This document shows positions 52,062 through 58,369 of a stretch of DNA of 64,000 nucleotides, one piece after another. A program made the position numbers and the translations under genes. The first letter of the stretch is position 1. Every line of letters starts with the position of its first letter. The stretch covers positions 4,763,501 through 4,827,500 of the forward strand of contig NZ_CP019426.1 in NCBI RefSeq assembly GCF_009834515.1. Direction: 5' to 3'. The notes under the pieces are model-generated. The model ran no database searches. It was not told where the DNA came from and saw only the letters and a program-made list of their open reading frames with translations. This stretch comes from Pseudomonas sp. R84. GTDB lineage: Bacteria; Pseudomonadota; Gammaproteobacteria; Pseudomonadales; Pseudomonadaceae.

Positions 52062-52135
52062 TCCTGACAACCATGTCCAAGAGGGCGCAGGAGCTTTATA
52101 CTCCCGCGCCCGTTTTGCTCTTGAGGACTTATCTC

Positions 52136-52543
52136 GTGTCCAACGTCGTTGCCGATCATCTTGTTTTACTCGACCACCTGCGCAGCATCCTGGTCGCCGT
52201 AGGTGAGGCCGAACAGGTTCCCGAAGAAAGCCATGCCCTGTTCCTGGAGCGCTTCGACGAACTGCTCGCATCGCTGCCGATCGATCCGATCGAAAGCCAG
52301 TACCTGGGCCAGGACATCCTGACTCAAGTGATTAGCCGTTACCCGCAGATCGCCCACCTGATCCCGCGCGATCTGCTGTGGTTCTTCGCCGGTGACTGCC
52401 TGCACTACCTGTCCGATGAAGAGATCGACCTGTATCAGGCGCTGGAAGAGCGCCGTTACGAAGCTGAACAGAACGACGAACCGTTCGACTGGAATCAGGA
52501 AAAACAGCTGCTGGCGATGTCTGCTCAGGACAGCAAGCACTGA
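52136..52543 (+). CDS. Conserved Pseudomonas small protein (PA2817-like)
   Basis: The 135-residue soluble, acidic protein starts with GTG at 52136 (VSNVVADHLVLLDHLRSILV), preceded by GAGGACTT; an in-frame ATG at 52073 would add an implausible stretch. It contains DILTQVISRYPQIAHLIPRDLLWFFAGDCLHYL and an acidic tail. It looks like a small conserved gamma-proteobacterial family of unknown role. It follows fadE by 74 bases and may be co-transcribed. Confidence 0.85.
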   Translation: MSNVVADHLVLLDHLRSILVAVGEAEQVPEESHALFLERFDELLASLPIDPIESQYLGQDILTQVISRYPQIAHLIPRDLLWFFAGDCLHYLSDEEIDLYQALEERRYEAEQNDEPFDWNQEKQLLAMSAQDSKH

Positions 52544-52653: not shown

Positions 52654-53652
52654 TTACAGCAATCCCTCGCTTTCCGGTAATTCATACGCCATGGCTGCGT
52701 TACTCGCACTACCAGACTTGCCCGGCTTGCTCAAAGTCGGCTCTTTCTGCAGACACTCCACCAGATAGTCGATAAACACCCGCAACTTGGGAGGCAGATA
52801 GCGCGTCGGCGAATGCAGCAACCACAGTCCGCCATGGTAGGACGCCAGGAAAGTCCAGTCCGGCAGCACCTGCACAATCAACTTCTGCTCAAGTGCGTAA
52901 CGGGCGGTGAAATACGGCAGGCTGCCGATGCCAATGTGCTGCAACACCGCGCCCAAGCGCACGCCCGTATGATTGGCGGCATAGCGACCACGCACCCCTA
53001 CCGTCACCGCTTTGTTGCCTTTCTTGAATTTCCAGCGCGCATCGCTCGGAGTTTCCCCCAGATAAACACAGCTGTGATTGAGCAAATCATGGGGATGGGT
53101 CGGCGTGCCGTGTTCGGCCAGGTATTGCGGCGTGGCACAGAGCAGGTGGTCGATGGTCAGTAACTGCCGCCCAACCAGCCCGGCCGGGGGGCGATCGGTG
53201 ATGCGAATCGCCAGATCGACATGGTCGTCGATCAAATCGACCTGACGATCTTCCAGCAGCAACTCGACATCGACCTTGGGGTAGCGCCGCAAAAATTCAG
53301 GCATATGCGGATGGATCACGAAGCGACCCACTGCTTTCGGCACGCTGACGCGCACCAGACCTTCCGCTTCATGGGTAAACTGACCACTGATTTCCATCAC
53401 CGATTTGGCCGCGCTGACCATTTCCTGGCAGCGCTTGAACACCTCTTCGCCACCGTCACTCAAACGCAGCTTGCGCGTGGTGCGCTGCAACAACCGCGTG
53501 GCCAAGGCTTTTTCCAGCCGCGAAATACTGCGGCTCACCGCTGAGGGCGATGAGCCCAGTTGCCGAGCGGCTTCAGAGAAGCTGCCGGTCTCCACGACCT
53601 TGACGAAAATCGCCATTTCACCGAGCAGCGGTAGCGGCAGATTGATGCTCAC
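52654..53652 (-). CDS. LysR-family transcriptional regulator
   Basis: The 332-residue regulator has an N-terminal helix-turn-helix (about 10-65, with TGSFSEAARQLGSSPSAVSR) and the periplasmic-binding-like effector domain. The GTG at 53652 is preferred because AAGGA lies 10 bases upstream; a TTG at 53661 is too close to it. It is divergent from the alaX-oxygenase-lysE genes (91-base gap) and most likely regulates them. Its effector could be an amino acid. Confidence 0.9.
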   Translation of the reverse strand: MSINLPLPLLGEMAIFVKVVETGSFSEAARQLGSSPSAVSRSISRLEKALATRLLQRTTRKLRLSDGGEEVFKRCQEMVSAAKSVMEISGQFTHEAEGLVRVSVPKAVGRFVIHPHMPEFLRRYPKVDVELLLEDRQVDLIDDHVDLAIRITDRPPAGLVGRQLLTIDHLLCATPQYLAEHGTPTHPHDLLNHSCVYLGETPSDARWKFKKGNKAVTVGVRGRYAANHTGVRLGAVLQHIGIGSLPYFTARYALEQKLIVQVLPDWTFLASYHGGLWLLHSPTRYLPPKLRVFIDYLVECLQKEPTLSKPGKSGSASNAAMAYELPESEGLL

Positions 53653-53690
53653 AGCGCACAAGTCCTTTGATGTTTGAACGGATTATCACG

Positions 53691-53713
53691 TTATTGCACG
53701 ATTCATATAATAA
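53691..53713. promoter_or_regulatory. Inverted repeat in the LysR/alaX divergent region
   Basis: TTATT (53691-53695) and AATAA (53709-53713) flank 13 bases, in an AT-rich spot midway between the two divergent start codons. The spacing is close to the T-N11-A type sites bound by LysR proteins. It is a weak repeat and only a candidate. Confidence 0.4.
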
Positions 53714-53742
53714 AAAAAGAAACTTTAATAAGGGCATGGAAT

Positions 53743-54369
53743 ATGACGCTTCGCCTCTTTTTCCATAGTGATGACCTCAAGGCCAATGTGGAAGTCCTCG
53801 ACTGCACGCCCCAAGAGCACGAATTCGCCGTGGTATTGCGCGCCACACTGTTTCATCCGCAAGGCGGTGGCCAGCCGTGTGATACCGGCTGGATCGGCGA
53901 AAGCCAGGTAATGCGTGTGGTGCAGGAGCCAGAGCGGATCATTCATTTTGTTGACCGGCCGGTGGCGCTCGGCATGACCTGTATCCGCATCGACGAACAG
54001 CGCCGCCACTTCAACACGCGCATGCATTCAGCCGGTCACCTGATCGGGCATTTCGTTCAAGCACTGGGCTGGACGCCGATCAAGGCGCACCACTGGCCGG
54101 ATGAAGGCCGAGTGCAATTCAAACCCGGCGATGCCGCGCAGGAAGTCGACGCAGAGACCGTTCAATACGGCATTGGCCAGTGGATCGAGCACGATCTGCC
54201 GCGCCTGACCTCACTGCGCGAAGGCGCGCGGGAAATCAGTTTTGGTGACCTGCCCGCCTATGGCTGCGGCGGCACCCATGTACGCAGCCTGAAGGATCTG
54301 GGCACAGTCACGATCGCGTCCCTTTCGCAGAAGAAGGGCACGCTGTCCGTCCACTACCACGTGGATTGA
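53743..54369 (+). CDS. AlaX-type free-standing tRNA editing protein
   Basis: The 208-residue protein is the editing domain of alanyl-tRNA synthetase without the synthetase. It has the GGGQ loop (41-44, FHPQGGGQPCDTG) and the zinc ligands His95 and His99 (HSAGH) and Cys175 and His179 (CGGTH). Known AlaX proteins remove wrongly attached Ser or Gly from tRNA-Ala, and relatives clear other small residues. It is followed by an amino-acid-type oxygenase and a LysE exporter, which suggests a special proofreading task for the local product. Confidence 0.9.
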   Translation: MTLRLFFHSDDLKANVEVLDCTPQEHEFAVVLRATLFHPQGGGQPCDTGWIGESQVMRVVQEPERIIHFVDRPVALGMTCIRIDEQRRHFNTRMHSAGHLIGHFVQALGWTPIKAHHWPDEGRVQFKPGDAAQEVDAETVQYGIGQWIEHDLPRLTSLREGAREISFGDLPAYGCGGTHVRSLKDLGTVTIASLSQKKGTLSVHYHVD

Positions 54370-54374
54370 GCATT

Positions 54375-54428
54375 TCGGACGCTGCCTCACGCAACGTCCG
54401 ACGCCGGGGAACCGCATTCGCAGGTTCC
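54375..54428 (+). promoter_or_regulatory. Two successive hairpins between alaX and the oxygenase gene
   Basis: TCGGACG/CGTCCGA (54375-54381, 54395-54401) and GGAACC/GGTTCC (54408-54413, 54423-54428) are exact inverted repeats in the 88-base gap. Neither has a T tract. They may pause or process the transcript so that the two genes are expressed at different levels. Confidence 0.45.
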
Positions 54429-54457
54429 GTTGACTATCGATAGATGGACCTAAAAAA

Positions 54458-55228
54458 ATGATGCTAGACGTCGAGCGTCTCGATGAGACGTGCATAAAAA
54501 AACTGGCCAACGAAGAAGTCCTCGCCATCCGCGTCAAAGGCTTTTTGCCTGAGCCACTGGCCATTCAGATTGGCGACAAGATTCTCGCTCCAGGCTTTGA
54601 GGGCTACATCAACGCACCGAGCATCGGCCGCATCGGCATGGCGTTTTACGAGGCAGAAAACCAGCCGCTGCTGATCGAGGACTACTTCGATCGCGCCACC
54701 AGCAACATCGCGGAACTGCGCAATCGCTGCGCGCCCTACCCCTCACCGATCGATACCTTGCGCTGCATGCTCGACGAATCCTGGCCGGCTGGCGCACACC
54801 TGGAAAACCTCTACGGCCGCAAAATGTATGTCGGCCTTTCGCGAGTGGTGAAACCAGGCGTGTGCTTCCTCGCCCACCACGACATCTTCGCCAAAGACGC
54901 CCCGGACAGTTTCCAGGCCCGCAGCCTGGAGGCGCAGTTCGCCTGCAACGTCTATCTGAACATGCCGACCGAGGGCGGCGCGCTGCAGATGTGGGACGAC
55001 GACATCAGCCCGGATCAATTCGACGAAATGCGTGGTGACAGCTATGGCATCGAACCGGCGCTGCTCGGCCCTCCCGCCCTCGAAGTCCGGCCACAACCCG
55101 GCGATTTCATCATGTTCAATTCGCGGCGCATGCACTCGGTGACCCCGGGCGTGGCCGATCCGCGCTTGAGCCTTTCCTTTTTTGTCGGCTATCGCGGCAA
55201 TGCTTCACCCCTGACGTACTGGAGCTGA
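54458..55228 (+). CDS. Fe(II)/2-oxoglutarate-dependent oxygenase, amino-acid-modifying type
   Basis: The 256-residue protein has the jelly-roll oxygenase facial triad His140-x-Asp142 (AHHD) with His226 (RRMHSVTPG), and Arg236 (DPRLSLSFF) to hold 2-oxoglutarate. Size and layout remind me of the BesD-type free-amino-acid halogenase/hydroxylase family. In halogenases a Gly replaces the Asp; here the Asp is kept, so hydroxylation is expected. It follows alaX and lies one base before lysE. A second ATG at 54461 is possible. The substrate is not readable; a free amino acid is inferred from the neighbours. Confidence 0.8.
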   Translation: MMLDVERLDETCIKKLANEEVLAIRVKGFLPEPLAIQIGDKILAPGFEGYINAPSIGRIGMAFYEAENQPLLIEDYFDRATSNIAELRNRCAPYPSPIDTLRCMLDESWPAGAHLENLYGRKMYVGLSRVVKPGVCFLAHHDIFAKDAPDSFQARSLEAQFACNVYLNMPTEGGALQMWDDDISPDQFDEMRGDSYGIEPALLGPPALEVRPQPGDFIMFNSRRMHSVTPGVADPRLSLSFFVGYRGNASPLTYWS

Positions 55229-55229
55229 G

Positions 55230-55868
55230 ATGTATTCGAATTATCTGGGCGAGTTTCTGGCGCTGGCTACTATTCACTTTCTGGCCGTGGTTGCTCCCGG
55301 CCCGGACTTCGCGGTCACCATTCGCCAAAGCGTACGCTTCGGCCGACTGGTGGGAATCTGCACGGCGCTGGGGATCGGCGCAGGGATTTCCGTGCACGTG
55401 CTCTACACGCTGTTGGGTGTAGGGGCATTGATGCACACCACCCCGTGGTTGCTGACCGTGGCCAAAGTGGTTGGCGGTGCTTACATTCTGTATCTGGGTG
55501 TCAGCCTGCTGCGCAGCAAGCCAAAGTCAGCCATTGAAGGTGAGAAAACCAGCGAGGAACCGCTGGTTGAGCAAACCCTGTTCAAAGCGTTCAGCACCGG
55601 TTTTCTGACCAATGCGACCAACCCCAAGGCCACGCTGTTTTTCCTGGCCATTTTCACAACGATCATCAGCGCCGAAACACCTCTGCAAATCCAGGCGTTC
55701 TATGGTTTGTGGATGTGTTTTGTGAATGCGCTGTGGTTTGTCGTGGTCGCGCTGTTTTTCTCGAGCAGTCGGGTTCGAGTGCTGTTCATGCGCATGGGGC
55801 ATTGGTTCGAACGCACCATGGGCGTGGTGCTGATTCTGTTTGCCGGGCGCTTGATGCTGTCTTGGTAA
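55230..55868 (+). CDS. LysE/RhtB-family amino-acid exporter
   Basis: The 212-residue protein has five to six membrane segments and the LysE/RhtB start FLAVVAPGPDFAVTIRQSVRFG, plus GAYILYLGVSLLRSK and FLTNATNPKATLFFLAIFTT. Members export amino acids or their derivatives. The ATG lies 1 base after the oxygenase stop, so the two are almost certainly co-translated and the exporter is likely to handle the oxygenase product. Confidence 0.93.
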   Translation: MYSNYLGEFLALATIHFLAVVAPGPDFAVTIRQSVRFGRLVGICTALGIGAGISVHVLYTLLGVGALMHTTPWLLTVAKVVGGAYILYLGVSLLRSKPKSAIEGEKTSEEPLVEQTLFKAFSTGFLTNATNPKATLFFLAIFTTIISAETPLQIQAFYGLWMCFVNALWFVVVALFFSSSRVRVLFMRMGHWFERTMGVVLILFAGRLMLSW

Positions 55869-55996: not shown

Positions 55997-56072
<76 letters not shown>

Positions 56073-56074
56073 AA

Positions 56075-56150
56075 TGGCGTCCCCTAGGGGACTCGAACCC
56101 CTGTTACCGCCGTGAAAGGGCGGTGTCCTAGGCCACTAGACGAAGGGGAC
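56075..56150 (-). tRNA. tRNA-Glu (TTC), copy 1
   Basis: The 76-nt gene starts GTCCCCTTCGTCTAGTGG, has anticodon TTC in CCTTTCACG, T-arm GTTCGAGTC and encoded CCA. The acceptor stem GTCCCCT/AGGGGAC is complete. Only two bases separate it from the tRNA-Gly that follows. Confidence 0.97.
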
Positions 56151-56172
56151 ACAGGCTACAACTTTCACTAAT

Positions 56173-56201
56173 AAAAACGCCGCTCACTGAGCGGCGTCTT
56201 T
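56173..56201 (-). terminator. Terminator inside the tRNA array
   Basis: ACGCCGCTC (56177-56185) and GAGCGGCGT (56189-56197) pair around ACT; on the minus strand five T follow. It is almost the same as the final terminator (55961-55989) and lies between pair 2 and pair 1, as if the unit tRNA-Glu/tRNA-Gly/terminator had been duplicated. Confidence 0.8.
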
Positions 56202-56207
56202 AGAATT

Positions 56208-56283
<76 letters not shown>

Positions 56284-56286
56284 AAA

Positions 56287-56362
56287 TGGCGTCCCCTAGG
56301 GGACTCGAACCCCTGTTACCGCCGTGAAAGGGCGGTGTCCTAGGCCACTAGACGAAGGGGAC
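56287..56362 (-). tRNA. tRNA-Glu (TTC), copy 2
   Basis: The sequence appears identical to copy 1 over 76 nt, with anticodon TTC and encoded CCA. It lies 3 bases before tRNA-Gly copy 2. The 104 bases between pair 2 and pair 3 hold no gene. Confidence 0.97.
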
Positions 56363-56466
56363 ACGCTACCCGGAACACATGGTGTGTGTTTCGGTGTCCA
56401 GATCCGCATCCGAAGACTGGGTTCTGGTTTCACTCAGCACCGCCGGAAAGCAGAGCTGTTTAAAAT

Positions 56467-56542
<76 letters not shown>

Positions 56543-56544
56543 AT

Positions 56545-56620
56545 TGGCGTCCCCTAGGGGACTCGAACCCCTGTTACCGCCGTGAAAGGGCGGTGTCCTA
56601 GGCCACTAGACGAAGGGGAC
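56545..56620 (-). tRNA. tRNA-Glu (TTC), copy 3
   Basis: The sequence appears identical to the other two copies, with anticodon TTC and encoded CCA. It is the first gene after the promoter, with about 55 bases of leader. Confidence 0.97.
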
Positions 56621-56992: not shown

Positions 56993-57763
56993 GTGACACC
57001 ACTCATGATCACCCTGCTAGTCATAGCCGGGATCGCAATTCTGATCGCCATTGGCTATATGAACCATGTGGTGGAAAACAACAAACTGGAGAAGGCCCGC
57101 ACCAAGGTCGAGCTTAACGACCGCCTGCGCCGCTGCGGCGAACTGACCGAGACCTTCCCGGGCCAGTTCATGACCCCGGCCCTCAAGCTGCTGCTGACCC
57201 GCCTGGAATTGAACGTCTGCCAGCGCCTGCTGAACCTGGAAAAAACCAGCGCCACCATAAAAGCGCGCATCACCGAACTAAGCGCCCTGGTCGCCCAAGG
57301 CGAATCGATCCCGGTCAACAACCCGCCGGCACCGATCCTGACCGAAGCCAAAGCCAAAGACGTGCGCTTCCTGCTTGAAGCCCTCCACGGCCAGATCACC
57401 CGCGCCGCCCACGACGGCTTCCTGCCGCCGAACGAAGCCAAGCACTGGATCCGCGAAGTCCGCCACATTCTGGTGTTGCTGCACATCGAATTCTTCAACA
57501 ACCTCGGTCAACAGTCCCTGCAACAAAACCAGCCCGGCCAGGCCCGCCTCGCCTTCGAACGCGGCGTGCAATACCTGCGCAAACAGCAGGATCCGCAGAT
57601 GTACGCAGAACAACTGCAATACCTGGAAAAACTGCTGGCCCGCGCCAACGCCCAGGTCATGGACAAGATTGCACCGGTTGAAGGTGAAGAGAACCAACTG
57701 ACTGCCGGCCTAAAAGATGTAGAGGCCGATGCAGACTGGAAGAAGAAAGTGATCTACGACTGA
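56993..57763 (+). CDS. Conserved membrane-anchored protein of unknown function
   Basis: The 256-residue protein has one N-terminal membrane helix (about 5-23, MITLLVIAGIAILIAIGYM) and a long helical cytoplasmic or periplasmic part with TPR-like helices near the C-terminus (QARLAFERGVQYLRKQQDPQ). I recall an orthologue (PA2820) next to the tRNA-Gly/Glu genes of P. aeruginosa. The start is GTG at 56993 with AAGAGG upstream; an ATG at 57005 is possible. Function is unknown. Confidence 0.85.
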   Translation: MTPLMITLLVIAGIAILIAIGYMNHVVENNKLEKARTKVELNDRLRRCGELTETFPGQFMTPALKLLLTRLELNVCQRLLNLEKTSATIKARITELSALVAQGESIPVNNPPAPILTEAKAKDVRFLLEALHGQITRAAHDGFLPPNEAKHWIREVRHILVLLHIEFFNNLGQQSLQQNQPGQARLAFERGVQYLRKQQDPQMYAEQLQYLEKLLARANAQVMDKIAPVEGEENQLTAGLKDVEADADWKKKVIYD

Positions 57764-57782
57764 TCGCAGATGTAGAGAGAGA

Positions 57783-57805
57783 AGCCACCGAGAGGTGGCT
57801 TTTTT
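57783..57805 (+). terminator. Terminator after the membrane-anchored protein gene
   Basis: AGCCACC and GGTGGCT pair around GAGA and are followed by TTTTT, 20 bases after the stop codon. Confidence 0.85.
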
Positions 57806-57847
57806 GTGGGTTCGCGGGAGTGAACACGATAGACACCCGATGGATGC

Positions 57848-58303
57848 GAGGCCGCTTTCGCGAGCAGGCTCGCTCCCACATGGTTTGAGTACATCCGGCA
57901 GAAATGGGGTCGGCTGTCAGGCAGCCTTCGCGAGCAGGCTCACTCCTACAATGGAGTTGAGTACATCTGACAGAGATTGGTCGGCTGTCAGGCCGCCTTC
58001 GCGAGCAGGCTCGCTCCCACATGGTTTGAGTACATCCGGTAGAGATGGGGTTGGCTGTCAGACCGCGATCGCGAGCAGGCTCACTCCTACAATGGAGTTG
58101 AGTACATCTGACAGGGATTGGTCGGCTGTCAGGCCGCCTTCGCGAGCAGGCTCGCTCCCACATGGTTTGAGTACATCCGGTAGAGATGGGGTTGGCTGTC
58201 AGACCGCGATCGCGAGCAGGCTCACTCCTACAATGGAGTTGAGTACATCTGACAGGGATTGGTCGGCTGTCAGGCCGCCTTCGCGAGCAGGCTCGCTCCC
58301 ACA
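57848..58303 (+). repeat. Direct array of seven REP units with a 71-bp period
   Basis: Seven same-direction copies of the REP core start at about 57857, 57927, 57998, 58069, 58140, 58210 and 58281. Two subtypes alternate: odd copies read CAGGCTCGCTCCCACA and even copies read CAGGCTCACTCCTACA. The linkers also alternate (ATGGTTTGAGTACATCCGG and ATGGAGTTGAGTACATCTGA), so the true unit is about 142 bp, and the last two units are almost identical. Open frames through the array in both strands only reflect the repeat and are not genes. Confidence 0.92.
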
Positions 58304-58369
58304 GAAAAGCAAAAGCAAAACAGCGCCCACCTCGCACCGCGTCGCTTCTCACCACTCAACAGGATGAGC

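Follow-up and report, generated by a model that had tools for sequence, protein, structure and literature searches.

The locus described here lies within a stretch of 64,000 nucleotides from Pseudomonas sp. R84 (contig NZ_CP019426.1; hereafter the window), part of a 6.6-Mb Pseudomonas genome. It consists of four genes at positions 52654-55868, which encode a LysR-type regulator, an AlaX-type tRNA-editing protein, an iron(II)- and 2-oxoglutarate-dependent (Fe/2OG) oxygenase of the hydroxylase type and a LysE/RhtB-type amino acid exporter. An earlier interpretation made from the DNA alone (the sequence-only reading) reported four intact genes here, the last three running in one direction under a divergent LysR gene, and this description agrees with our coordinates: all four are open frames with matches to Pfam domains, and their placement is exact. 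The LysR gene (52654..53661, minus strand; PF00126, 72.1 bits; PF03466, 130.8 bits) likely starts at GTG 53652 or TTG 53661. It is divergent from the genes for AlaX (53743..54369, plus strand; 208 amino acids), the oxygenase (54458..55228, plus strand; 256 amino acids; PF13640, 38.1 bits against a cut-off of 27) and LysE (55230..55868, plus strand; 212 amino acids; PF01810, 126.5 bits against a cut-off of 25.6), and a single base separates the oxygenase stop codon from lysE. The most likely start of AlaX is ATG 53743 rather than 53674, and a Met-Thr start is common to its relatives. Within the gap between LysR and AlaX, a pattern scan identified a promoter-like pair of -35 and -10 elements (TTATCA, 17 nt, TATAAT; 53683..53711, plus strand), one of 3 matches in the region where 1.5 are expected in shuffled sequence. 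In an alignment of this gap from 18 chosen loci, with and without the oxygenase, TTATCA is constant and the -10 element is variable (viz. TATAAT, TATACT, CATAAT, and AGAAT).

The AlaX protein of the window carries the zinc ligands HxxxH and CxxxH and the GGGQ loop characteristic of its family and lacks a synthetase core, and its predicted model shows the full AlaX-M fold, with 24-25% identity to solved AlaX-M proteins. It does not reach the AlaX-M equivalog model NF040865 (68.8 bits against a cut-off of 300), against which six other AlaX proteins from such clusters score 57-93 bits. It further differs from AlaX-M trans-editing proteins in its position in an operon with genes for amino acid chemistry and export. 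The exporter scores over the cut-off of the LysE family (PF01810), and its best NCBIfam model, TIGR00949 (homoserine/threonine efflux), is not reached (153.5 bits against a cut-off of 183.95).

The oxygenase is a member of the 2OG-Fe(II) hydroxylases (PF13640), over the family cut-off and with its catalytic residues intact: H140, D142, H226, and R236, which form the HxD...H facial triad and the 2-oxoglutarate-binding arginine, are invariant in 35 sequences, and HxD, sought as an unaligned pattern, occurs in the expected stretch of all 23 rows of the oxygenase family. The nearest folds are WelO5 and the N-substituted L-amino acid dioxygenase of entry 3w20, which we take to be SadA, at 17-18% identity. 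In WelO5 a glycine, Gly166, occupies the position of the aspartate ligand of hydroxylases (entry 5iqu is, by its title, the G166D variant), whereas the window oxygenase keeps HxD, with Asp142 invariant. The sequence-only reading had allowed for either hydroxylation or halogenation; because the HxD ligands are kept, the enzyme is read as a hydroxylase, and the halogenase reading is rejected despite WelO5 being the nearest fold. The HilA model NF041274 is matched at only 22.4 bits over residues 132-255, against a cut-off of 500. As far as kinship goes (viz. the WelO5/3w20 fold, the weak match to the HilA hidden Markov model, and the LysE-type exporter), the substrate is predicted to be of the amino acid type, as had been proposed.

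The four genes are strongly linked within Pseudomonas. A search for relatives confirmed 151 stretches, of which the best 80 were kept; together with 30 from a sample of the genus, including the window's own, they make up 110 opened loci, and the order and strands LysR-AlaX-oxygenase-LysE are kept in every one of them. Matches to the oxygenase family are present in 100 of the 398 genomes of the genus sample, the 106 matches falling into 80 close ones (at least 442 bits) and 26 weaker paralogues (at most 208 bits). AlaX was searched in 199 Pseudomonas genomes and lies 60-110 bp from the oxygenase in all 43 that have a close oxygenase, frameshifted in one; AlaX (at least 235 bits) without a close oxygenase is found in 42 genomes and neither in 114 (Fisher p 3.8e-20, a value that shared ancestry inflates). 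For LysE, presence was assessed in the opened loci, rather than in all 43 of these sampled genomes.

Outside Pseudomonas, the oxygenase is found at an E-value of 1e-40 or below in 4 of 369 genomes sampled from the class, 4 of 398 from the phylum and 3 of 293 from the order (each including the window's own), in 1 of 119 genomes of the Xenorhabdus family sample, and in 7 of 30 from the genus Xenorhabdus (at 1e-30). Five genomes outside Pseudomonas possess a full close oxygenase (G660, G1036, G1094, G1509, and G1530), four of them with the AlaX-oxygenase-LysE trio. Intact trios are present in L120, whose oxygenase is identical to an Acidihalobacter protein, in L123 and L146 from Xenorhabdus, and in L124 from another genus of the Pseudomonadaceae; in genome G1506 a deletion has joined AlaX residues 1-41 to residues 141-256 of the oxygenase, and LysE is whole. 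Among more distant oxygenases, AlaX lies directly downstream in G693 (L121) and G1183 (L172), and none lies beside the oxygenase of G401. Pairs of this kind, with the order of oxygenase and AlaX reversed, are L121, L144/L172, L141, L211, and L210, and in L210 an MFS gene comes next; they are found in Caballeronia, Undibacterium, Embleya and two other genomes. For Escherichia coli, a blastn search of 20,395 records with 53743-55868 gave no DNA match, a search which needs roughly 65-70% identity and misses diverged copies, and one scan of viral contigs for viral carriage gave 25 pattern matches and 0 relatives.

The association is also found on plasmids. The oxygenase occurs in 14 plasmid records and is adjoined by AlaX in seven of these, from Photobacterium, Acinetobacter johnsonii, Achromobacter, Caballeronia, Undibacterium, and Embleya, which amount to about five independent cases. 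An intact trio is present on a plasmid of A. johnsonii (L139) of 6,362 bp, typed as mobilizable, which also carries mobC, an integrase-core fragment and further, unassigned frames; in Embleya an MFS transporter gene follows the oxygenase-AlaX pair. The records NZ_CP068209.1 and NZ_CP068212.1, filed as Acinetobacter johnsonii and Achromobacter xylosoxidans, are both 6,362 bp long and are likely one plasmid, judged by equal length and not by base-by-base comparison. The sequence-only reading proposed a survey of gene neighbourhoods and regarded random co-occurrence of the genes as fatal to its case. Because the AlaX-oxygenase-exporter association is conserved in 43 of 43 genomes and 110 of 110 loci, and recurs beyond the genus, on plasmids and in different gene orders, random co-occurrence is ruled out.

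A parallel pairing involves chlorinating enzymes. In three loci found in passing, which do not represent a rate, a relative of AlaX is flanked by genes for a SyrB2-type enzyme and an EamA/DMT transporter: L168:4048-9155 from Pseudomonas, L206:276-5356 from Xenorhabdus, and L212:3122-8201 from a Salmonella plasmid typed as conjugative. All three also hold an adenylation domain, whose gene is split over two frames in L206, and an alpha/beta hydrolase. The enzymes of L168 and L206 are over the cut-off of the chlorinating-enzyme model TIGR01762 (E about 1e-133), and that of L168 shares the WHQAD stretch of SyrB2 (2fct), which it matches at E 2e-132; the enzyme of L212 is chlorinating by its record name and PhyH by Pfam, and its AlaX, without a Pfam match, was identified through 56% identity to the AlaX of L206. 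These clusters of the SyrB2/CytC3 type resemble the window locus in joining a Fe/2OG enzyme, an AlaX relative and an exporter; they differ in that their Fe/2OG enzyme belongs to another family (PhyH) and is accompanied by an adenylation domain, neither of which is present in the window.

The earlier view that self-protection by tRNA editing would be unusual has to be tempered, as FthB and FthC are reported to shield makers of 4-fluorothreonine, a threonine-like toxic amino acid, by deacylation and export (PMC7408626, PMC7162832). The window locus resembles these systems of Streptomyces cattleya and Streptomyces sp. MA37 in that a trans-editing deacylase and an exporter are encoded together with the making of a toxic amino acid, and judged by genes alone it has an FthABC-type content (viz. 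a likely biosynthetic enzyme, a tRNA-editing protein, and an exporter in one locus). However, FthB is placed by a review, which also covers AlaX specificities, among ProXp-ST1-related proteins with an INS-superfamily fold (PMC11295145), whereas the window protein has the AlaX-M fold. The biosynthetic enzymes (a transaldolase in Fth, a Fe/2OG hydroxylase in the window) and the hosts differ as well. An AlaX relative of S. cattleya (L209) has a LysE gene 1.6 kb upstream, the frames tested beside it encoding LysE (PF01810) and a methyltransferase (PF04072), and inspection of 14.6 kb by eye revealed neither a transaldolase nor EamA; for these reasons, and given the superfamily to which the review assigns FthB, we do not claim this relative as FthB.

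The second comparison is with the Hil operon of Pantoea ananatis (HilA/HilB) and the Bacillus IDO operon, which share with the window locus a PF13640 dioxygenase, in Hil acting on free L-isoleucine and accompanied by a LysR regulator, and in some members an exporter (PMC3684760). The exporter of Hil is RhtA, that of the window LysE; no match to the partners HilB (PF10014) and hilP was found in the four genes and one neighbour on each side, and the main text of that paper mentions neither AlaX nor tRNA. The window locus unites the logics of Fth and Hil with an AlaX-family guard. A search of titles and abstract openings of open-licence articles in PubMed Central found none placing AlaX beside an oxygenase or halogenase, a scope within which absence is unproven.

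From these gene contents and predicted models we consider it fairly probable that the locus is a compact producer-plus-immunity operon. The oxygenase would hydroxylate a free proteinogenic amino acid or a close derivative, and an aminoacyl-tRNA synthetase would mistake the hydroxylated product for its own substrate; AlaX would deacylate the mischarged tRNA and so prevent self-poisoning, and LysE would export the hydroxylated amino acid. The LysR regulator would switch the genes on, probably by sensing the product or its precursor. A beta-hydroxy product, as a guess, would suit an editing site that evolved for serine. Genomes that lost the oxygenase may retain AlaX, LysE or both as protection from the product of their neighbours.

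The genomes without the oxygenase bear directly on this interpretation. All 42 Pseudomonas genomes with AlaX but no close oxygenase were opened, and 40 of them keep LysR and AlaX, side by side in every case, with no oxygenase match at the same site next to the PA2817-family gene, which in the window (52073-52543) flanks the locus on the LysR side. LysE is present too in five of the 40 (L155, L163, L194, L199, and L201), and the AlaX match of one (L202) ends at residue 183. In the other two (L165 and L166) AlaX is found at another position, accompanied by an AraC regulator and by a LysE other than that of this locus; arrangements of AraC, AlaX and an exporter without the oxygenase were noted in Pseudomonas at L165:6545-8789 and L166:5882-8157 (LysE) and at L171:6110-8734 (AzlC). 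Further AlaX copies, in L167, L169, and L170, are broken. A search for LysR in 20 genomes lacking AlaX found it in two (84% identity), with LysE (76%) and no adjacent AlaX or oxygenase, and in a third as a 53% match with two internal stops; it was not found in the remaining 17 at E 1e-60. The gene content at this one site is thus nested, the oxygenase always occurring with AlaX and LysE, and the other loci holding AlaX and LysE, AlaX, or LysE. Since the protective genes occur without the oxygenase and the oxygenase hardly without them, production is favoured.

A LysR tree computed quickly from 66 rows requires 7 changes of oxygenase state, and the oxygenase-less branches L155, L154+L156+L157, L152, and L153 nest inside the oxygenase-bearing clade. 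We read these four branches as losses, with the caution that 31 of the 63 inner branches are poorly supported and left open in the tree. The sequence-only reading regarded the locus as an accessory insert between core genes; this view needs some correction. The flanks are the PA2817-family gene and an array of tRNA genes (three tandem tRNA-Gly(GCC)/tRNA-Glu(TTC) pairs at 55997-56620, directly downstream of lysE), but the site reads as an old location decaying by repeated loss, not a fresh insert.

Several observations weigh against the proposal that the locus makes, guards against and exports a modified amino acid, which the sequence-only reading also advanced and which the conserved linkage favours. 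One is the persistence of AlaX in the 40 oxygenase-less genomes at the site: by medians of pairwise counts, its ratio of nonsynonymous to synonymous substitution (dN/dS) is 0.138 without the oxygenase (34 sequences) and 0.100 with it (70 sequences). The rise is slight, and LysR rises too, from 0.035 with to 0.060 without the oxygenase, so that this apparent weakening of selection on AlaX once the oxygenase is lost was not used as evidence of dependence; in the group of five with LysE but no oxygenase, the AlaX median of 0.339 comes from only 4 usable pairs, too few to interpret. LysR-AlaX without the oxygenase is also found in Klebsiella, Chimaeribacter, and Xenorhabdus. Given this purifying selection and the occurrence of LysR-AlaX alone in other genera, AlaX has its own function and clearly serves without the oxygenase as well. 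Moreover, the Fisher value overstates independence, because Pseudomonas genomes share ancestry; in one genome (G034) AlaX is frameshifted, by a real change or a sequencing error, beside an intact oxygenase; in X. bovienii (L173) AlaX is missing next to the oxygenase and LysE, the one AlaX match of this genome lying elsewhere beside an EamA gene; and both Photobacterium plasmid records, from one strain, have the oxygenase split between frames. More distant oxygenase relatives, 13 from Pseudomonas (L125-L137; 28-37% identity, 15-16 kb loci) and four from Xenorhabdus (L148-L151; about 30%, short loci), are not accompanied by an AlaX match. Two of the Pseudomonas paralogues, of about 35% identity and without AlaX (L130:2008-7926 and L131:6162-13011), lie beside nonribosomal peptide synthetase genes, which encode domains for adenylation and condensation as well as carrier and reductase domains, together with an EamA gene in L131, and another (L125:6858-8387) is next to a marginal cyclodipeptide-synthase match (28.4 bits, cut-off 27). 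To judge from these settings, the range of the wider oxygenase family extends beyond free amino acids. The label of cyclodipeptide synthase was dropped for Xenorhabdus L175:8332-9042, which matches only DUF5023, at 23.4 bits and under the cut-off. LysR-AlaX loci without the oxygenase were also noted near ispH/lspA/ileS in L216:3979-5630 (Klebsiella) and L207:5687-7415 (Xenorhabdus; neighbours by eye).

The strongest competing explanation, which we regard as unlikely though deserving of weight, is that the locus is a detoxification device, in which the oxygenase would inactivate a foreign toxic amino acid sensed by LysR, LysE would expel it and AlaX would clear it from tRNA, with no product exported. 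Combinations of AlaX with a regulator and an exporter of amino acids, but without the oxygenase, are indeed common (viz. LysR-AlaX-LysE in L155, L163, L194, L199, L201, and L215, AraC-AlaX-LysE in L165 and L166, and AraC-AlaX-AzlC in L171), and carriage on a very small mobilizable plasmid is as compatible with resistance as with production. AlaX without the oxygenase is found on plasmids too: among 16 regions opened from 29 plasmid records with AlaX are LysR-AlaX (Chimaeribacter and Klebsiella), LysR-AlaX-LysE (A. johnsonii, 15 kb), LysR-AlaX-MFS (Ewingella), AraC-AlaX-RidA (Cupriavidus), one context common to Pantoea and A. venetianus, the Salmonella chlorinating cluster, and the S. cattleya region with the upstream LysE gene. 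However, in the 110 Pseudomonas loci the oxygenase is present only where the AlaX and LysE genes are (one AlaX being frameshifted), and an enzyme in need of protection therefore fits better than an optional detoxifier; AlaX relatives are also found in biosynthetic-looking clusters with a chlorinating enzyme and an adenylation domain.

It is less probable still that AlaX carries out ordinary proofreading of Ser- or Gly-tRNA(Ala) and the oxygenase acts on a peptide, cyclodipeptide or other metabolite, the two sharing a regulator merely for reasons of stress or nutrition. The full AlaX-M fold of the model, the purifying selection on AlaX where the oxygenase is missing, the LysR-AlaX pairs of other genera, and the oxygenase relatives in nonribosomal peptide synthetase clusters and by the marginal cyclodipeptide-synthase match would suit such a division of labour. 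However, both gene orders recur in Gamma- and Betaproteobacteria and in an actinomycete, unlike an incidental pairing, and the parallel pairing of AlaX with a different Fe/2OG enzyme is not expected by accident. Finally, the amino acid on which SyrB2-type enzymes act is bound to a carrier, and its release needs a hydrolase, and AlaX is by family a hydrolase of tRNA esters, but that the oxygenase acts on a tRNA-attached aminoacyl group and AlaX releases the product, as a biosynthetic hydrolase and not a guard, is highly improbable, in view of the oxygenase fold being nearest to WelO5 (carrier-protein-independent per Pfam) and 3w20, the alpha/beta hydrolase that L168 and L212 hold besides AlaX, and the persistence of AlaX without the oxygenase.

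A broader proposal can be put forward tentatively, as one we consider somewhat more doubtful than credible: AlaX-family editing domains may form a recurrent class of self-immunity proteins that guard makers of hydroxylated or chlorinated amino acids, spread on plasmids and remain as orphan immunity after loss of the enzyme, the product of the window locus being a diffusible mistranslation weapon. Such a class would embrace two Fe/2OG enzyme families and exporters of the LysE, EamA or MFS type, and its members would persist in the manner of toxin immunity genes. If true, the combination of a Fe/2OG enzyme, AlaX and an exporter would provide a genome-mining rule for as yet unknown toxic amino acids, the stand-alone AlaX genes of many bacteria would be explained in part, and translation proofreading would act as immunity in competition between bacteria.

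Some minor features of the window and the site were also noted. The gap between AlaX and the oxygenase (54370-54457) has a short predicted stem of 8 pairs in 14 Pseudomonas loci; its covariation (1 of 8 pairs changed on both sides) is too weak for an interpretation. The tRNA-Gly/tRNA-Glu pairs near the site vary in number, with two pairs, one or none elsewhere (15 loci scanned). Downstream, at 57657-58367, overlapping open frames on both strands contain repeated peptide motifs and are perhaps a non-coding repeat array.

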